Of a stretch of DNA of 64,000 nucleotides, positions 14,308 through 21,044 are shown one piece after another. The stretch's first letter is position 1. The number at the start of each line of letters is the position of its first letter. The translations under genes were made by a program, and so were the position numbers. The notes under the pieces were generated by a model. That model was not told where the DNA came from, made no database searches, and saw only the letters and a list, made by a program, of their open reading frames with translations. Origin of the DNA: Labrenzia sp. PHM005 (lineage in GTDB: Bacteria; Pseudomonadota; Alphaproteobacteria; Rhizobiales; Stappiaceae); assembly GCF_006517275.1 (NCBI RefSeq), contig NZ_CP041191.1, forward strand, positions 2,537,001 to 2,601,000, read 5' to 3'.

Positions 14308-14437
14308 ATGTTTGGTCCTTAGAAAGCCAACGCCTCCTAGCAGGTCGATTGCTTTCTGTCATGCACCGTGGCCCAAGCCTTGGCTCCAAGCGTAAGATAG
14401 GTGCTAGAATCGCTTGCCCGCCTTGTCTGGAAAACTC

Positions 14438-16291
14438 ATGTCCGCCCTGTTCCGGCTTTTTGAATCCTGGATCGATCCCTTCCGTCCGCTGCCCGAGGCG
14501 CCGATCCCTCGCGGCGGCCTGGCCTTTCTGATGTTCTTCTTAAAACAAGCGCGCTGGCCGTTTTTTCTGATGCTGTTTGCAGGTGGCCTGACGGCCTTTG
14601 TGGAAGTCACGCTGTTCAGTTTTCTGGGCAAAATCGTGGATCTTCTGGATAGCAGCACCCCTGAAACATTTTTTGCTGATCATGCATGGATCCTGGTGGG
14701 CATGGCCGTTTTCGTCGTGGTCGTACGGGTGGCAGCCAACACACTGATGGCCTTGCTTGAGGAGCAGACAATTGTTCCTGGGTTCTTCAATCTTGTGCGG
14801 TGGCAGGCACACCAACAGGTGATGCGCCAGAGCCTAAGTTACTTTCAGGATGATCTGGCCGGCCGGTTGTCCCAAAAGGTCTTGCAGTCTGGCCTGTCTG
14901 CTGGCGACTTCATGGTCAATCTTCTGCAGGTCGTTTGGTTCATCGTGGTCTATGCCTTGACCACCCTGGTGCTGGTTGCGGATCTGGATCTGTGGCTTGG
15001 CGCCATCGTGTGCCTGTGGCTCGGTTGTTTTTCCCTCACAGCATGGATCTTCGTACCGCGGGTTAGGGGAGCGGCAAAGGAAACGGCCAACGCTTATTCC
15101 GGGGCATCCGGACGGCTTGTGGATACCTACAGCAATATACAGTCCGTCAAACTTTTCGGGTCTCTGAGCGAAGAGAATCGGGGCGCCCGTTCGGCGTTCT
15201 TGCATTTCATCGGCAAGTTGATGGCCTTTACCCGGTTGCTGACGACGATCCGGATGGTAATGAGCCTGATAAACGGGGTGATGATCGTCGCGATCACGGC
15301 CGTGGCTTTGATTGCCTGGCAAAAGGGCGGCATTAGCACGGGGCATGTGGCTTTCACGTTGAGCCTTATTTTGCGGCTGAGCATTCTGCTCAATCGTTTG
15401 TTCAATCAGCTGAATGGCTTGTTCCGGAATTTCGGCACCCTCCAGGACAGTATGGAAGCTATCGTCAAGCCAGTGACTCTCACCGATAAAGCGGGTGCTA
15501 CAGCTTTAACGGTTAGCAAGGGTGCCGTGGACTTTCAGGGGATCAAGTTTCATTACGGCAAACAGGGTGGGGTCATTGATCATCTGGATCTCTCGATCAA
15601 ACCGGGCGAACGTGTCGGCCTGGTTGGACCTTCAGGAGCCGGTAAAACCACATTGACCAGTCTTTTGCTGCGGTTCTTCGACGTTGAAGCTGGCCGGATA
15701 TCCATTGATGGCCACGATGTTCGCAGCGTTACTCAAGAATCGCTTCGCAAGTCGATCGGAATGGTGACACAGGATCCTTCCTTGTTGCACCGGTCCATCC
15801 GCGAGAACATTTTATATGGGCGTCCCGACGCTAGCGAAGCCGACCTTTATCAATCCGCCCGGCGGGCGCATGCGCTGGACTTCATTGAGGCATTGGAAGA
15901 CAAGTCCGGACGCAAAGGATTCGATGCCTATGCGGGTGAGCGTGGGGTTAAATTGTCCGGCGGGCAACGCCAGCGGATTGCGATTGCCCGGGTCCTTCTA
16001 AAGAACGCGCCAATCCTGGTTTTGGACGAGGCAACGTCTGCGCTCGATTCTGAAGTGGAAGCGGCGATCCAGGAAAACCTGCAGCAACTCATGGCGGGAA
16101 AGACAGTCATTGCTATTGCCCACCGACTCTCGACCATTGCAGCTCTCGACCGGCTTGTCGTGATGGATGGAGGACGGATTGTGCAGGAAGGCACGCATGA
16201 GCAATTATTGCGAGATGAAGCCGGTCTTTATGCTCAACTCTGGCGGCGTCAGTCTGGTGGATTTTTGAGGGCCGAAGTTCTGGATGGCTAG
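14438..16291 (+). CDS. ABC transporter, fused permease/ATPase (exporter half-transporter)
   Basis: About 617 residues: an N-terminal six-helix ABC membrane domain (TM segments from residue ~25 to ~310) and a C-terminal nucleotide-binding domain with Walker A GPSGAGKTT, signature LSGGQRQRIAIAR, Walker B ILVLDEATSALDSE and the H-loop AHRLS. This is the type I exporter (MsbA/lipid or drug) architecture, working as a homodimer or with a partner. The N-terminal LFESWIDPFRPLPE resembles WFENLIDPFENTEL of the second exporter at 19.2 kb, so the two are paralogues and may pair. The ATG at 14438 (GGAAAA upstream) is preferred to a TTG at 14414. Substrate unknown. Confidence 0.92.
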   Translation: MSALFRLFESWIDPFRPLPEAPIPRGGLAFLMFFLKQARWPFFLMLFAGGLTAFVEVTLFSFLGKIVDLLDSSTPETFFADHAWILVGMAVFVVVVRVAANTLMALLEEQTIVPGFFNLVRWQAHQQVMRQSLSYFQDDLAGRLSQKVLQSGLSAGDFMVNLLQVVWFIVVYALTTLVLVADLDLWLGAIVCLWLGCFSLTAWIFVPRVRGAAKETANAYSGASGRLVDTYSNIQSVKLFGSLSEENRGARSAFLHFIGKLMAFTRLLTTIRMVMSLINGVMIVAITAVALIAWQKGGISTGHVAFTLSLILRLSILLNRLFNQLNGLFRNFGTLQDSMEAIVKPVTLTDKAGATALTVSKGAVDFQGIKFHYGKQGGVIDHLDLSIKPGERVGLVGPSGAGKTTLTSLLLRFFDVEAGRISIDGHDVRSVTQESLRKSIGMVTQDPSLLHRSIRENILYGRPDASEADLYQSARRAHALDFIEALEDKSGRKGFDAYAGERGVKLSGGQRQRIAIARVLLKNAPILVLDEATSALDSEVEAAIQENLQQLMAGKTVIAIAHRLSTIAALDRLVVMDGGRIVQEGTHEQLLRDEAGLYAQLWRRQSGGFLRAEVLDG

Positions 16292-16379: not shown

Positions 16380-16784
16380 ATGGTTCAGTTCGCCACCGCC
16401 TATGTCACCACCGCCATCGTGTTTTTCGCAGTCGACTACGTCTGGCTCAGCCAAATCGCGACACGATTTTATTTTGATCGGATAGGTCATCTTCTTATGG
16501 ATCGGCCGAACATGGCGGCGGCAGCCGCTTTTTACCTGATTTACGTGGTGGGGATTGTGGTGTTCGCTGTTGGGCCGGCCCTGAAAAACGACAGTCTGGC
16601 ATATGCGGTTATTTACGGTGCATTGTTCGGTTTCTTCACCTATGCAACCTATGACGTCACCAATTACGCCACCATGAAGAACTGGCCCGTAATCGTTGTG
16701 GTGGTTGATGTTGTATGGGGTACAATTTTAGCGGCGTCCTCCGCTGCGCTTGGTTTTTTGTTGAGCCGGCAGTTGTTGAATTAA
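16380..16784 (+). CDS. DUF2177 family membrane protein
   Basis: A 134-residue integral membrane protein with four predicted helices. The FFAVDYVWLS, FFTYATYDVTNYATMKNWP and DVVWGTILAASSA segments match DUF2177. GAGGG lies just before the ATG. It sits 88 nt after the first ABC exporter, possibly on the same transcript. No biochemical role is known for the family. Confidence 0.88.
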   Translation: MVQFATAYVTTAIVFFAVDYVWLSQIATRFYFDRIGHLLMDRPNMAAAAAFYLIYVVGIVVFAVGPALKNDSLAYAVIYGALFGFFTYATYDVTNYATMKNWPVIVVVVDVVWGTILAASSAALGFLLSRQLLN

Positions 16785-16970
16785 TTCATCACTAAGAAGA
16801 AATGACGTGGGTGCGTTTGCCGGGTGACGCTGCGGTTTCTGCGTTGGGGCCTTAAGGCTTGTAGTTACTCATTTTTTACAGCTTTGCATTATTTATCGAC
16901 GACGATTCAGGTTTGGGCAGGTGCGTTACCCGTAGACTGCCATGTTTGTTGGGTTGGGGCCCGTACTATC

Positions 16971-18290
16971 GTGACGCTTTCCATAAACGGCCGTTTTGTT
17001 TCCATGGTGGTAACTGCCGCCTTGATCATGATGGGTGGCACCGCATTCGCCTTCTACACATTTCGGCAGGCATTGATCGAACAGCTTGGAACCTCAAGCG
17101 GCGCCCAGCAGTTCCTGGACGGCAATGTGGCTTCAAATATCGACGGGCTGATCTTGGATCAAATGATCACGATTGGGCTAACGATGACACCAGTGGGCCT
17201 AGTTTTTCTAGGACTTGCGGTAGTTCTTGCGGTGGGAATTGCCCGCCCGTTGAGCCGGCTCCAGTCCGCACTTGACCGTCTTTCGGCCGGAGATCTTGAT
17301 ATCGAGATTGATGGCGTTGAACGTCACGATGAAATCGGTTCCATAGCCCGGTCTGTCACTGACTTTCGCAGCAATTTGGCTGAAAATGCTAGAGAGCAGG
17401 CGCGCAAGGACCAAGCGCATCAGGAGGCATTGACGGAAGAACGGTCGGCCTTGATGCAAGATGTTGCCGATGACTTTGAGAAGTCGGTCATGGGGGTTGT
17501 GTCGTCTTTGATAGAGTCGACGGGAACCGTTGAAAACAATTCAGTAGACTTGAGAAACGCTGTTGAGTCGTCTCTTCAAGCGGTCTCTGAAGTCAGCAGT
17601 GCGTCAAGCGATGCCAACCAGTCTGTGGAGACAGTAACAGGGGCTTCCAATCGTTTGTCGGACTCCCTGTCACGGGTTCGCGACGATGTCGATCAGGCAA
17701 GTGATATTGCAGATGCCGCTGTGGCTGAAGCCCGTAAGACTGATGAGATTGTTGGCCGCCTGTCGGAAACGGGCCGGGCAATTGGCGAAATCGTTGAACT
17801 TATCAGCCAGATCGCAAGCCAAACCAACCTACTTGCTTTGAACGCCACAATCGAGGCGGCGCGGGCAGGAGATGCCGGCCGTGGATTTGCTGTTGTGGCC
17901 AATGAAGTCAAGGCGCTTGCCGAACAGACCACAAAGGCAACCGATGACATTTCTGCGCAGGTCGCCGCAGTCCAGGATGTGGCGGAGCAATCAGGTGTCG
18001 CCATTTCGTCGATTGCGGACACCATTCAGCGGGTAAGTGAAATTTCGTCGAAGATCCGGGAAGCTGTCGAAGACCAGACGTCTGCGACAGGGGAAATCAA
18101 CGGCAGCGCACAGACGGCACTGGACAGCTCAGAGCGTGTTTCAGGCAATGTCAGCGCATTGAACGATGCGATGGAAGCGAGCCGGACGGCGACGGAAGGA
18201 ATGAGCAGTGCATCCGCAGAACTGGGTAGTCTTTCCAATTCCCTCCAAGCTCAGGTGTCCCAATTCCTGCAAAGTGTCCGCGCAGCCTAA
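16971..18290 (+). CDS. Methyl-accepting chemotaxis protein (short sensor)
   Basis: About 439 residues from a GTG start; the frame stays open upstream but that stretch is not protein-like, and [14 protein letters not shown] is a typical receptor N-terminus. Helix 1 (about 8-30) and helix 2 (about 65-90) bracket only ~35 periplasmic residues, so there is no classic sensor domain. A HAMP domain ([20 protein letters not shown]) leads to the signalling domain with hairpin tip [20 protein letters not shown], the CheA/CheW-binding region. It presumably senses membrane or cytosolic cues or works with a binding protein. No CheR-docking pentapeptide is seen at the C-terminus. The exact start is uncertain. 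Confidence 0.88.
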
Positions 18291-18485
18291 ATCTTTGACG
18301 CTTGTCTATGGTGGTTAAGTCCCGCTGCCTTATATGTCCCGGGCTGTATGAAGCATTACGACCGTGCACCCACATGTCACATATGTGGCTGATTTGTCAC
18401 AGCTCTGGGTTTAGGTGCAGTTCGGCGGAAATCGCTCTTCCCTTAGCCGCGTTTCCAAAGTAACAAGAAGTCCTCAACCTTGACG

Positions 18486-18533
18486 GGTTGTTGTTTCAAT
18501 CCCTTTGGCCGCCCGGCCAAGCAACCAGGAGGG
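18486..18533 (+). promoter_or_regulatory. Leader hairpin next to uORF Shine-Dalgarno
   Basis: A nested stem-loop is formed by GGTTG (18486-18490) with CAACC (18522-18526) and TTGGCC (18505-18510) with GGCCAA (18515-18520). It abuts an AGGAGGG Shine-Dalgarno at 18527-18533 that serves a 24-codon ORF. CCCT at 18501-18504 could alternatively pair with AGGG in the SD, so two exclusive structures, one masking the SD, can be drawn. This is seen by inspection only; no energy was calculated. Confidence 0.5.
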
Positions 18534-18538
18534 CTTAC

Positions 18539-18613
18539 ATGCTGAATCGTTCGACGCACACAGCGACAGCCGTCCATCGGGTTCGCACGGGATCATCTGC
18601 GCGTTTCGCCTAA
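18539..18613 (+). CDS. Putative 24-residue leader peptide
   Basis: ATG at 18539, TAA at 18611-18613, with the strongest Shine-Dalgarno in the neighbourhood (AGGAGGG, 5 nt spacing). The peptide begins MLNRSTHTAT and is rich in Thr, Arg, Ala and His, without a run of one amino acid that would point to an amino-acid attenuator. Its stop codon lies in the loop of a GC-rich stem (18599-18622). It is about 130 nt upstream of a small membrane protein gene coupled to an ABC exporter, the arrangement of translation-controlled leaders of drug-exporter operons. I do not recognise the peptide; that it is translated is inferred. Confidence 0.55.
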   Translation: MLNRSTHTATAVHRVRTGSSARFA

Positions 18614-18661
18614 AAAGCGCGCCTGAGTTCCTAACACTTTTCCGACGTCCGGCTTAAGCCG
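18599..18661 (+). promoter_or_regulatory. Tandem stem-loops after leader ORF
   Basis: GCGCG (18599-18603) pairs with CGCGC (18618-18622) across the leader stop codon, so a ribosome finishing the uORF would melt it. A perfect 12-nt palindrome CGGCTTAAGCCG follows at 18650-18661. Neither stem is followed by a U-run, so a simple intrinsic terminator is not supported; Rho-dependent or translational control is possible. The remaining ~80 nt up to the membrane protein ATG shows nothing further. Confidence 0.4.
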
Positions 18662-18742
18662 CCCATCAGTTCTGGCTGCATGCGTGTCCTTGCGCGTGTC
18701 TGCGGGCGTTTCTCTCAATTTCCTTCGTTTCGGAGACACATC

Positions 18743-19213
18743 ATGTCCTTCGGTGATCCCCTTGGGCCATTCCGGCCCAGCTTAGGCCCGGATATCGTCC
18801 AGGAGCCACTTGTCCGGCGCCCAGACGTCATCATTGAGCCGTATTTGAAACCGCGCCCGTCCACACGACTGGGTATACGCAACTTTTTGAAGATATTCGG
18901 TTTGTTTGGCGGGGCGACTGGCGTTCTGACAGTGCTGTTTGCGGCGCCGGTCTTCGTTTCCGAATTCGCAGCGATCGAAACTGTCGGCGTCCATGGCAAG
19001 ACCCTGACAGCGCTCCAGTTCGCTGACCGGCTTGAAAATCTTCTGTTTGGTTCCTTTATCGTGGCAGTATCGCTGGTAAGTTTCTGTGCTTCGGCAGCGA
19101 TTGCATCTCCGCGCCTCGGCGTGCGCGATCATGAGAGGGAGCCCTATAAATTCGAGTGCGGGGATGGTCATGCATCCGTCCAGCCCACTCATGCAAAGGT
19201 TCATCATGTATAA
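18743..19213 (+). CDS. Hypothetical membrane protein coupled to ABC exporter
   Basis: About 156 residues from the ATG at 18743 (CGGAG upstream; an in-frame ATG at 18680 lacks one). The N-terminal ~55 residues are polar and Pro-rich (DPLGPFRPSLGPDIVQEP); two helices follow (about 52-75 and 98-122), then a polar tail. I recognise no family. It overlaps the ATG of the following ABC exporter by 8 nt, implying coupled translation and possibly a subunit relationship. Regulated, by position, through the leader ORF upstream. Confidence 0.65.
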   Translation: MSFGDPLGPFRPSLGPDIVQEPLVRRPDVIIEPYLKPRPSTRLGIRNFLKIFGLFGGATGVLTVLFAAPVFVSEFAAIETVGVHGKTLTALQFADRLENLLFGSFIVAVSLVSFCASAAIASPRLGVRDHEREPYKFECGDGHASVQPTHAKVHHV

Positions 19214-21044
19214 GTGGTTCGAAAACCTGATTGATCCGTTTGAAAACACGGAACTCGATGTACCGCCGAAAGGCTTCTGGGCTTTCTGTTGGTACTACAC
19301 CAAGCCGGTGTGGCCAATCCTTGCCGTGGCCTCGGTCTTGGGCGCTACAATTGCGATCCTGGAAGTCATGGTCTTCACCTTTCTGGGAGACCTAGTGAAT
19401 TGGCTGGGAACGGAAAACGCTGAGACGTTTTTTGCTGACAACTGGGGGCGGCTCCTTTGGATGGGGGCTGTTGTTCTCGTCCTTCTGCCAGCGGTCTCGG
19501 CGGTTTGGGAAATGGCTTTCCATCAGGGGCTGATGGGCACCTATCCGATGTCGGTGCGCTGGCGGGTTCACCGGTATCTGCTCCGGCAAAGCGTCGCGTT
19601 TTATCAAAACGACTTTGCCGGCCGGATCGCCAACAAATTGATGCAAACGGCTCTGGCTGTCCGGGAGGTTGTCACCCGGATTGCGGATATCCTTGTCTAT
19701 GTCGTCGTTTATTTTGTCGCTGCTTTGTTCGTGGTCGCTGAGGCAAGCCCGTATTTTGCGATACCCTTCGTGGCTTGGCTGTGCGGATATCTGCTGACAA
19801 TGCGGATCTTCATTCCACGATTGAAGAATATTTCGCGGGATCAGGCAGACGCCCGGTCGCTTATGACCGGTCACGTGGTGGATGCTTACACCAATATTTC
19901 CACCGTGAAGCTCTTCTCACATGCTGCGCGGGAAGAAGACTACGCAAAGAAGTCCATGCTTGATTTTCTGAAGACAGTCTTTCTTCAGATGCGCCTGGTG
20001 ACGGGCATGAACATCACCTTGATGGCATTGAATGTGGTGTTGCTCTTTGGTGTGGCGGCACTGTCTATCGTACTTTGGCAACAAGGACTGGTGGGCACCG
20101 GCGAAATCGCAGTCGCGGTTGCGCTGGTTCTCAGGCTCCAGGGCATGTCGCAATGGATCTTGTGGGAAGTTTCCGGTCTTTTCGAAAACATCGGCACGGT
20201 TCAGGACGGCATCAACACAATTTCGCGGGAGCGTGATGTGGTTGATGAGCCGGATGCAAAGCCACTAGTTGTCGTAAAAGGCGAGATCCAGTTTGAGAAG
20301 ATCCGGTTCCACTACGGCAAAGATGCCGGGGTGATCGAGGACTTGAGCTTGACCATCAAGGCGGGTGAAAAGATCGGACTCATTGGCCGCTCTGGCGCAG
20401 GTAAGTCCACCTTGGTGAATTTGCTTCTCCGATTCTACGACCTGGAAGGTGGCCATATCCTGATCGATGGACAGGATCTGTCTAAGGTCCGTCAGGACGA
20501 TATTCGCAAGAACATCGGTGTGGTCACACAAGACACGTCTCTCTTGCATCGGTCGATTTTCGAAAATGTTGCCTATGGCAAGCCGGATGTCAGCCGGGAA
20601 GAGGTCATGGCTGCGCTTAAAAAGGCGCACGCCGATGAGTTCGTGCACGGACTTGAAGACCAAAACGGCCGGACTGGCCTGGATGCTCATGTCGGTGAAC
20701 GGGGCGTGAAACTCTCTGGTGGTCAGCGTCAGAGAATTGCGATTGCCCGGGTGCTCTTGAAAGATGCACCGATCCTGGCGCTCGACGAGGCGACTTCGGC
20801 ACTCGATTCCGAGGTGGAAATTGCAATCCAGGAAAGCCTGTTTGACCTGATGGAGGGCAAGACAGTGATTGCGATTGCGCACCGGCTGTCGACCATTGCC
20901 GCCATGGATAGGCTGATTGTCATGGACAACGGTCGAATCATGGAAGAGGGCTCTCATCACGAGTTGCTGGAGCGCAACGGGGTGTATGCGCAGCTCTGGC
21001 AACACCAGTCTGGTGGCTTCTTGGCACCGGTTCAGGCCGCCTGA
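19206..21044 (+). CDS. ABC transporter, fused permease/ATPase (paralogue of the 14.4-kb exporter)
   Basis: About 612 residues with six N-terminal helices and a C-terminal ATPase: Walker A GRSGAGKST, signature LSGGQRQRIAIAR, Walker B ILALDEATSALDSE, H-loop AHRLS. MYKWFENLIDPFENTELDVP and the whole layout resemble the exporter at 14.4 kb, so this is a paralogue. The start at 19206 sits inside the end of the membrane-protein gene (ATGTATAA overlap) with AAAGG 5 nt upstream; the longer open frame to 19086 is only read-through of that gene. Substrate unknown; lipid or toxic-compound export is inferred from fold. Confidence 0.92.
   Translation: MYKWFENLIDPFENTELDVPPKGFWAFCWYYTKPVWPILAVASVLGATIAILEVMVFTFLGDLVNWLGTENAETFFADNWGRLLWMGAVVLVLLPAVSAVWEMAFHQGLMGTYPMSVRWRVHRYLLRQSVAFYQNDFAGRIANKLMQTALAVREVVTRIADILVYVVVYFVAALFVVAEASPYFAIPFVAWLCGYLLTMRIFIPRLKNISRDQADARSLMTGHVVDAYTNISTVKLFSHAAREEDYAKKSMLDFLKTVFLQMRLVTGMNITLMALNVVLLFGVAALSIVLWQQGLVGTGEIAVAVALVLRLQGMSQWILWEVSGLFENIGTVQDGINTISRERDVVDEPDAKPLVVVKGEIQFEKIRFHYGKDAGVIEDLSLTIKAGEKIGLIGRSGAGKSTLVNLLLRFYDLEGGHILIDGQDLSKVRQDDIRKNIGVVTQDTSLLHRSIFENVAYGKPDVSREEVMAALKKAHADEFVHGLEDQNGRTGLDAHVGERGVKLSGGQRQRIAIARVLLKDAPILALDEATSALDSEVEIAIQESLFDLMEGKTVIAIAHRLSTIAAMDRLIVMDNGRIMEEGSHHELLERNGVYAQLWQHQSGGFLAPVQAA

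Follow-up and report, generated by a model that had tools for sequence, protein, structure and literature searches.

In S. meliloti the duf1127_1 gene is preceded by a leader of 279 nt, in which a 29-amino-acid upstream open reading frame (uORF) is found and its ribosome binding site (RBS) is paired with the C-rich codons 3-10 (PMC12218461). According to the same report a 45-nt region with 38% C and 18% G begins just past the uORF stop, the leader is described as having no working intrinsic terminator, and tetracycline acts as inducer (PMC12218461). Termination requires translation of the uORF, and synonymous recoding relieves the attenuation; the early C-rich codons and the post-stop stretch are the two elements of this leader, of which the codons can be masked by the RBS, while the role of Rho was inferred and bicyclomycin is absent from the main text (PMC12218461). 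For the bmrCD exporter genes induction by drugs was demonstrated (PMC4191407).

In this article we describe a leader from Labrenzia sp. PHM005, which judging from its relatives is of the Roseibium/Labrenzia type within the marine family Stappiaceae; the leader is located in a stretch of 64,000 nucleotides (contig NZ_CP041191.1, positions 2,537,001 to 2,601,000), which is called the window. The local order of genes is an ABC exporter paralog (14414-16291), a DUF2177 protein (16380-16784), a chemotaxis receptor (16824-18290), the leader, a small membrane protein of 156 aa (18743-19213, + strand), an ABC half-exporter of 612 aa with ABC_membrane and ABC_tran domains (19206-21044, + strand), a Rieske protein and the bc1 genes, where the cytochrome b and c1 labels downstream of Rieske were taken from the listed translations. 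The start of the small gene was set at 18743 rather than 18680, and the half-exporter gene overlaps its end; the membrane character of the 156-aa protein was read off its sequence, and no match to it was obtained in Pfam or NCBIfam. A sequence library search placed the exporter among MsbA-like half-exporters, with scores under the curated cut-off in each of the best 25 of 187 families, and in a structure-library comparison ABCB structures were near to it. It is a putative pump, and any transport of drugs by it would be hypothetical. Two ABC half-exporter genes (14414-16291 and 19206-21044) flank the DUF2177 and chemotaxis receptor genes beside the bc1 genes, a second exporter is close by also in a number of relatives, and the two paralogs of the window may form a heterodimer.

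Relatives of the exporter at E 1e-180 or better were recognized in 84 of the 87 genomes of the family (83 with a match of at least 62% identity) and relatives of the small membrane protein in 56 of the 87. In R. hamelinense (L081, G074) the gene of the latter stands in two tandem copies after the leader. The Rieske gene lies downstream of the exporter in 47 of the 48 Stappiaceae loci, and the sequence of the sole exception (L120) ends about 1 kb past the exporter. The exporter is also found beside Rieske in Bauldia and Cohaesibacter (L148, L151, L156, L178, L181), where no uORF was found by the widened Shine-Dalgarno (SD) rule given below; since these loci have the pairing without a detected uORF, the exporter-Rieske pairing is maybe older than the leader.

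The leader (18475-18745) consists of two 5' hairpins, the uORF, a hairpin at its stop codon, a C-rich linker, a three-way junction (3WJ) and the main SD. Hairpin P0 is formed by 18475-18479 with 18486-18490 and hairpin P1 by 18505-18510 with 18515-18520, both on the + strand and both with covariation in 15 relatives. The uORF SD, AGGAGGG (18527-18533, +), is embedded in GCAACCAGGAGGGC, a stretch invariant across 15 aligned leaders and different in R. sediminicola (L116), which is outside that set. The uORF itself (MLNRSTHTATAVHRVRTGSSARFA; 18539-18613, +) has 24 codons from the ATG at 18539 to the TAA at 18611-18613. The AGGAGGG site and the 24-codon ORF between hairpins that a first-pass annotation of this DNA had pointed out are therefore present, at slightly changed coordinates, and so is the stem that was said to carry the uORF stop in its loop: a hairpin at 18599-18622 (+), with 8 bp (18599-18606/18615-18622) and -11.1 kcal/mol in the local fold, encloses the TAA. 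Codons of the uORF at 18571-18586 (+) are predicted from duplex and local fold to pair with its own SD region, and we call them the SD mask. After the stop there is a linker, by composition C-rich and G-poor (18623-18643, +), which is a candidate rut-like site, and then the 3WJ (18644-18710, +) with the stems P3 (18644-18649/18705-18710), P3a (18650-18661) and P3b (18675-18703). The main SD of the small membrane protein gene, GGAG at 18732-18735 (+), is present in all 40 leaders compared. From the uORF stop to the first ATG of the operon (18743) 129 nt were measured, where about 130 nt before a two-gene operon had been stated, and the two genes overlap. Upstream of the leader a near-palindrome, TGTG..CACAG, was seen at 18371-18402, which by eye many relatives match with CTGTGTCC-GATTGG-CAACAG-like letters; this stretch is perhaps an operator or part of a promoter.

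The energy of the whole-leader fold is ordinary in the window (z -0.80, matched by 44 of 200 shuffles), and the junction stem P3 and the SD mask are both missing from the global minimum-energy fold. Since the single-sequence fold is unremarkable, the case for a structured leader rests on the relatives. Without any guidance RNAalifold returned the 3WJ, the hairpins P0 and P1, and a short helix between the uORF SD and codons of the uORF. Among the 15 relatives 94.4% of the cells of P0 and 96.7% of those of P1 are paired, and in each hairpin both bases have changed in 3 of 6 pairs (together 95.6% and 6 of 12), and in the comparison with shuffles one of five measures, the number of pair types, was not raised (365/500). 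For the 3WJ 98.4% of the cells are paired in 15 sequences. In 40 matches (37 distinct, coming from 48 sources) the figure is 96.9%, and both bases have changed in 12 of 17 pairs, in an alignment that leans towards the structure because it was fitted to it. None of 500 shuffles attained any of the five measures of 3WJ covariation, and slid versions of the junction pair at 20-63%. Its unpaired letters are fixed as well, namely AA in the loop (40/40) and a U flanked by two GC pairs (38/40). An alternation between CAACC/GGUUG repeat pairings was considered and rejected: P0 covaries, but the competing pairing is by eye broken in L008 and L015. U-rich letters follow P0 in many relatives (by eye), and P0 could also end the transcripts of the upstream receptor gene.

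A DNA search with 18290-18760 gave matches in 16 of 41 genomes, all of them within the 25 genomes of the same genus. From 15 of the leaders matched by DNA the covariance models R1 (3' domain) and R2 (5' domain) were built, the latter with P0 in a wrong register, so that it served solely as a detector. R1 and R2 match 34 and 33 of the 87 family genomes, all within the 45 genomes of the own genus, at one place per genome at E 0.01, and strong adjacent matches of both were obtained in 32 genomes. Across 397 genomes of the order R1 has 7 matches, all in the own genus; the searches of more than 40 genomes were run with stricter filters, which lose weak matches. With a cut-off of E 1e-3 a broader model of the junction, R3, has matches in 42 of the 87 genomes of the family, namely in 40 of 45 in the own genus and in 2 of 5 in the genus g20, Pannonibacter. 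Two genomes outside its training, G024 and G017, were matched with the match ending exactly at the ATG of the small gene. Weak matches in the Pannonibacter loci L129 and L130 (E 0.007 and 0.004) share one end position, which in L130 is the expected start codon, and very weak ones in five Pseudovibrio loci (E 0.14-2.1) end exactly at the start codon; neither group was counted as proof, and at E up to 1 R3 also has weak matches away from the locus. Over 385 genomes sampled across the class R3 matched the own genome alone. Rfam gave 0 matches in the window at the gathering cut-off, and up to E 5 it gave 7 in L001, L006 and L011, none of them inside the leader. We infer that the 3WJ is a new RNA domain, one that has no match in Rfam.

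The models match fewer family genomes than the exporter or the small protein do, and the detectable sequence of the leader is therefore narrower in distribution than its genes. For this reason the DNA upstream of other exporters was read directly, for 24 exporters where the models had no strong match and at 80 named exporter loci. When a strict SD rule was applied and the length set to 17-34 codons, uORFs were found in 21 of 23 Roseibium loci (0.06 expected) and in 10 of 14 loci of Stappia, Pannonibacter and Hongsoonwoonella (0.02 expected); the 10 Pseudovibrio loci had none (0.02 expected), nor had the reverse strand of the same 47 loci, used as control. The uORF SD of most Pseudovibrio loci is GGGAGA-like. 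When the rule was widened, uORFs were recognized in 43 of the 48 Stappiaceae loci (0.26 expected), a count for which the SD variants had been added after inspection of Pseudovibrio. Outside the family the widened rule detected a uORF in 1 of 32 loci (0.30 expected), of which L185 was unscannable because its upstream DNA is too short. Expectations came from dinucleotide shuffles for the strict count and from first-order Markov resampling for the widened one. Loci were placed in Stappiaceae on the basis of record title and identity, and the 48 take in AO1-B, BW5 and SP118, which are less explicitly labelled members. R. hamelinense was scored as a miss in both counts, since the second copy of its small gene pushes the uORF further upstream. 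The uORF spans more lineages than the 3WJ, and it is apparently older than its own sequence. Conservation of the stems and the uORF in relatives had been named earlier as a test of this leader, and the outcome is positive, with the uORF in 43 of 48 Stappiaceae loci and covarying hairpins and 3WJ. The original observation is right and better founded than had been claimed.

What has been kept in the uORF was further studied in 29 distinct leaders, chosen by the word CAACCAGGAGG, of which 28 were used in the pN/pS count. The frame is open in all 29 (24 codons in 28 and 23 codons in one), and of the shifted frames +1 is open in 0 and +2 in 21. Variation is alike at the three codon positions (0.37, 0.39 and 0.39 in 28 uORFs). 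For 28 sequences pN/pS was 0.81 in the frame of the uORF, with 0.92 and 0.71 in the two shifted ones. In close pairs it was 0.70 (23 pairs) or 0.59 (75 pairs), with 0.88/0.78 and 0.62/0.70 for the shifted frames, and by distance class the uORF had 0.70/0.59/0.74/0.86 against 0.62/0.70/0.66/0.73 for the +2 frame. The peptides differ between genera; neither the pN/pS test nor the comparison between genera revealed a conserved peptide or arrest motif in the uORFs, and a C-terminal motif common to all of the peptides was not seen by eye. The peptide thus appears to be weakly selected at most, and because the frame is kept nevertheless, the act of translation or the RNA would count for more than the peptide. 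In the uORFs of the 48 loci internal Met (z 6.9) and Ala (z 4.6) are over-represented and Pro is depleted (z -5.0). Cys is found in 45 of 48 peptides; attenuation by cysteine was rejected, as the cluster-weighted enrichment of Cys is just z 1.9 and the peptide of the window has no Cys. The macrolide type of arrest motif is +X+, and it was rejected too: RLR, RFR or RQR stand before the stop in a part of the Roseibium set alone, where they are equally accounted for by the stop-codon hairpin.

The masking of the uORF SD was analysed as a duplex in 55 uORFs, grouped in 20 clusters at 40% identity. In 18 of the 20 clusters the SD stretch forms a stronger duplex with codons of its uORF than with shuffled codons. 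The mean z is -1.13 (Wilcoxon p 1.3e-4), with clusters that are not independent at this identity cut, as several are Roseibium. In the window the duplex has -14.2 kcal/mol (z -2.06 against codon shuffles). In 44 of 55 uORFs the partner of the SD begins between +29 and +35 nt, and the letters of the mask vary by eye from GGGC/GUCC with GCAACC/GGUUCGC in the window to GGGAGA/UCUCCC in Pseudovibrio; it is absent or weak in some lineages, among them the Stappia stellulata group, L087 and L012. The uORF stop is inside a short hairpin with a mean probability of 0.76 against 0.56 in shuffles (p 0.044, 20 clusters), and this hairpin is absent in Pannonibacter, R. polysiphoniae, Pv. exalbescens and L082. 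The stretch from stop to junction measures 25-51 nt in 40 leaders, with 33.6% C and 16.0% G; leaving out its first 8 nt, C/G is 3.04, compared with 0.90 in the DNA before the leader and with 1.13 for the 3WJ. C exceeds G in the linker of 40/40 leaders and, at nt 7-36 past the stop, in 54 of 55 uORFs. The linker is a possible Rho-loading (rut-like) site, judging from this composition.

The segment 18200-19300 contains 6 terminator-like matches against 1.3 in shuffles, including P0 and 18689-18706. The window scan found none within the uORF (18539-18613), and the one between uORF and gene in the window is that at 18689-18706, where the aligned relatives have by eye no U-run. As these matches exceed the shuffles, P0 or the junction of the window may act as an intrinsic terminator. 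The predicted median of unpaired bases over 40 leaders is 0.20 for the uORF SD and 0.15 for the main SD. Occupancy of the uORF was modelled by folding solely the RNA from 13 nt past the stop, and it had no effect on the main SD, whose median was 0.15 in the whole leader and 0.17 in the occupied one (40 leaders). Since both folds bury the main SD equally, the uORF is unlikely to free it, within the reach of such a simple folding test, and a role of the uORF in antisequestration was rejected on this flat result. The main SD pairs mainly with the region of the stop hairpin in 1 of 40 leaders (L091) and mostly with that of the 5' hairpins in 7 of 40 (0.49 or more, predicted); short hairpins over the main GGAG differ by eye in sequence between Roseibium and Pseudovibrio. 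The coupling of the uORF to exporter expression that the first-pass annotation had proposed is partly supported, in so far as the leader is conserved across the family, structured and likely regulatory.

Our preferred reading, which is tentative and which we hold to be possible rather than probable, is that this is a cis-acting translated leader adjusting the transcription of the small membrane protein and ABC exporter genes to the translation state of the cell. Across Stappiaceae there recur a uORF with a strong SD, base pairing between this SD and codons of the same uORF, and the G-poor stretch after the stop; over most Roseibium the frame and length of the uORF, the stop-codon hairpin and the 3WJ are kept while the peptide drifts, and the hairpin and the 3WJ are partly kept in other genera also. 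With normal initiation and clearance of the uORF, the C-rich codons and the linker would be exposed between ribosomes, Rho, a presumed participant, would load on them, and transcription would stop before the exporter. Were initiation to slow down or be blocked, or were ribosomes in short supply, the first of these elements would be covered, either by a ribosome that has paused or by the hairpin of SD and codons, and transcription would continue into the exporter operon. The 3WJ beside the main SD would act as a second, separate control. It should be emphasized that the 3WJ is the best-supported structure of the leader and is unexplained by this translation-sensing model. The main rival, somewhat unlikely in our estimation, takes the 3WJ as a ligand-binding aptamer, i.e. 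a new riboswitch controlling access to the main SD, with the uORF as accessory. It draws on the strong covariation and the fixed unpaired letters of the junction, on its position directly before a main SD predicted as sequestered, and on the single place per genome in the R1 and R2 searches. Nevertheless the junction has no match in Rfam, it was found at one operon in one family, which is unusual for a metabolite switch, it occurs in fewer lineages than the uORF, and no switching pairing between 3WJ and main SD was noticed in an unsystematic look.

Another, unlikely explanation is that the leader acts on translation or decay, where translation of the 5' uORF would protect the mRNA or feed ribosomes and the hairpins would damp both SDs. 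The G-poor linker is not accounted for in this way, the main SD is not freed by uORF occupancy in the folding test, and 129 nt and the 3WJ separate the uORF stop from the main start, which is far for reinitiation; on the other hand the predicted folds of the 40 leaders leave little of either SD unpaired, with the main one bound mostly to the 5' hairpin region in 7 of these, and the hairpins over the main GGAG that differ in sequence between Roseibium and Pseudovibrio would also suit it. A sensor based on peptide-specific stalling in the style of tnaC, erm or bmrB, by which a drug or cysteine would open the exporter operon, is very improbable. The exporter downstream, the Cys in 45 of 48 peptides and the close-pair pN/pS of 0.59-0.70 could be cited in its favour, but pN/pS is not below that of the +2 frame in most distance classes, the Cys enrichment falls to z 1.9 after weighting with none in the peptide of the window, and a C-terminal motif shared by all was not seen. 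That the leader is a product of chance or a relic with no regulatory role is hardly credible: the ordinary global fold energy would agree with it, and against it stand the uORF in 43 of 48 loci where 0.26 were expected and the covariation reached in 0 of 500 shuffles. A leader with two inputs may also be imagined, although as a whole it is quite unlikely: a self-masking uORF would report ribosome availability via Rho, a 3WJ aptamer would report a second signal at the main SD, and both would control the exporter. In this proposal the pump may serve the upkeep of the respiratory chain or the envelope and not drug efflux, a role suggested by the Rieske (bc1) gene downstream in 47 of 48 loci. The leader would also open a testable route to the exporter beside the bc1 genes, which is uncharacterised.

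Among the matches listed in the open-licence PMC literature the leader itself was not reported. Its resemblance to bmrB-bmrCD of Bacillus subtilis lies in a uORF leader placed before ABC exporter genes; bmrB, as described, codes for 53 aa, and inside this coding region are a terminator and alternative stem-loops, unlike the uORF of the window with no terminator-like match, and the BmrC/BmrD pair contrasts with the half-exporter and small membrane protein here (PMC4191407). The bmrCD type of analogy drawn in the first-pass annotation is weak and not supported in mechanism, given a uORF with no terminator-like match, a peptide that appears weakly selected at most, and an occupancy with no effect on the main SD in the folding test; the 6 terminator-like matches in 18200-19300 speak for the other side. 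In CruR of Bordetella pertussis translation of a uORF gates Rho before a transporter gene, and a transporter follows here too, but CruR is a DUF2946 protein with conserved CXXC and RAPP, while the present peptide is unconserved between genera (PMC9426467). A structured RNA domain together with a translated uORF is shared with the metE and ppe2 B12 riboswitches of Mycobacterium tuberculosis, which differ in having a known ligand, the leader described here having no Rfam match (PMC11260477).

Three features of the duf1127_1 type, namely a uORF with a strong SD, predicted pairing of this SD with uORF codons, and a C-rich, G-poor stretch after the stop, are found in the present leader. As in duf1127_1, a short uORF lies at the 5' side, the RBS pairs with its C-rich codons, a C-rich, G-poor stretch follows the stop, and the RNA rather than the peptide sequence appears to be important (PMC12218461). 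The sizes are similar, with 279 nt there and a distance of about 270 nt between P0 and the start codon in the window, and the masked codons are 3-10 in duf1127_1 and about 11-15 in our case (PMC12218461). The downstream gene differs, being DUF1127 there and an exporter operon here, and for the conserved 3WJ and stop-codon hairpin of the present leader no counterpart is seen in the available part of that report (PMC12218461). By analogy we infer that the Stappiaceae leader shares the duf1127_1 mechanism. If this is right, the self-masking uORF of one S. meliloti gene would exemplify a means of sensing translation status that is more widespread in Alphaproteobacteria. Within a family the layout of this design would be conserved more than the peptide, and in the present leader it would be combined with a new structured RNA.
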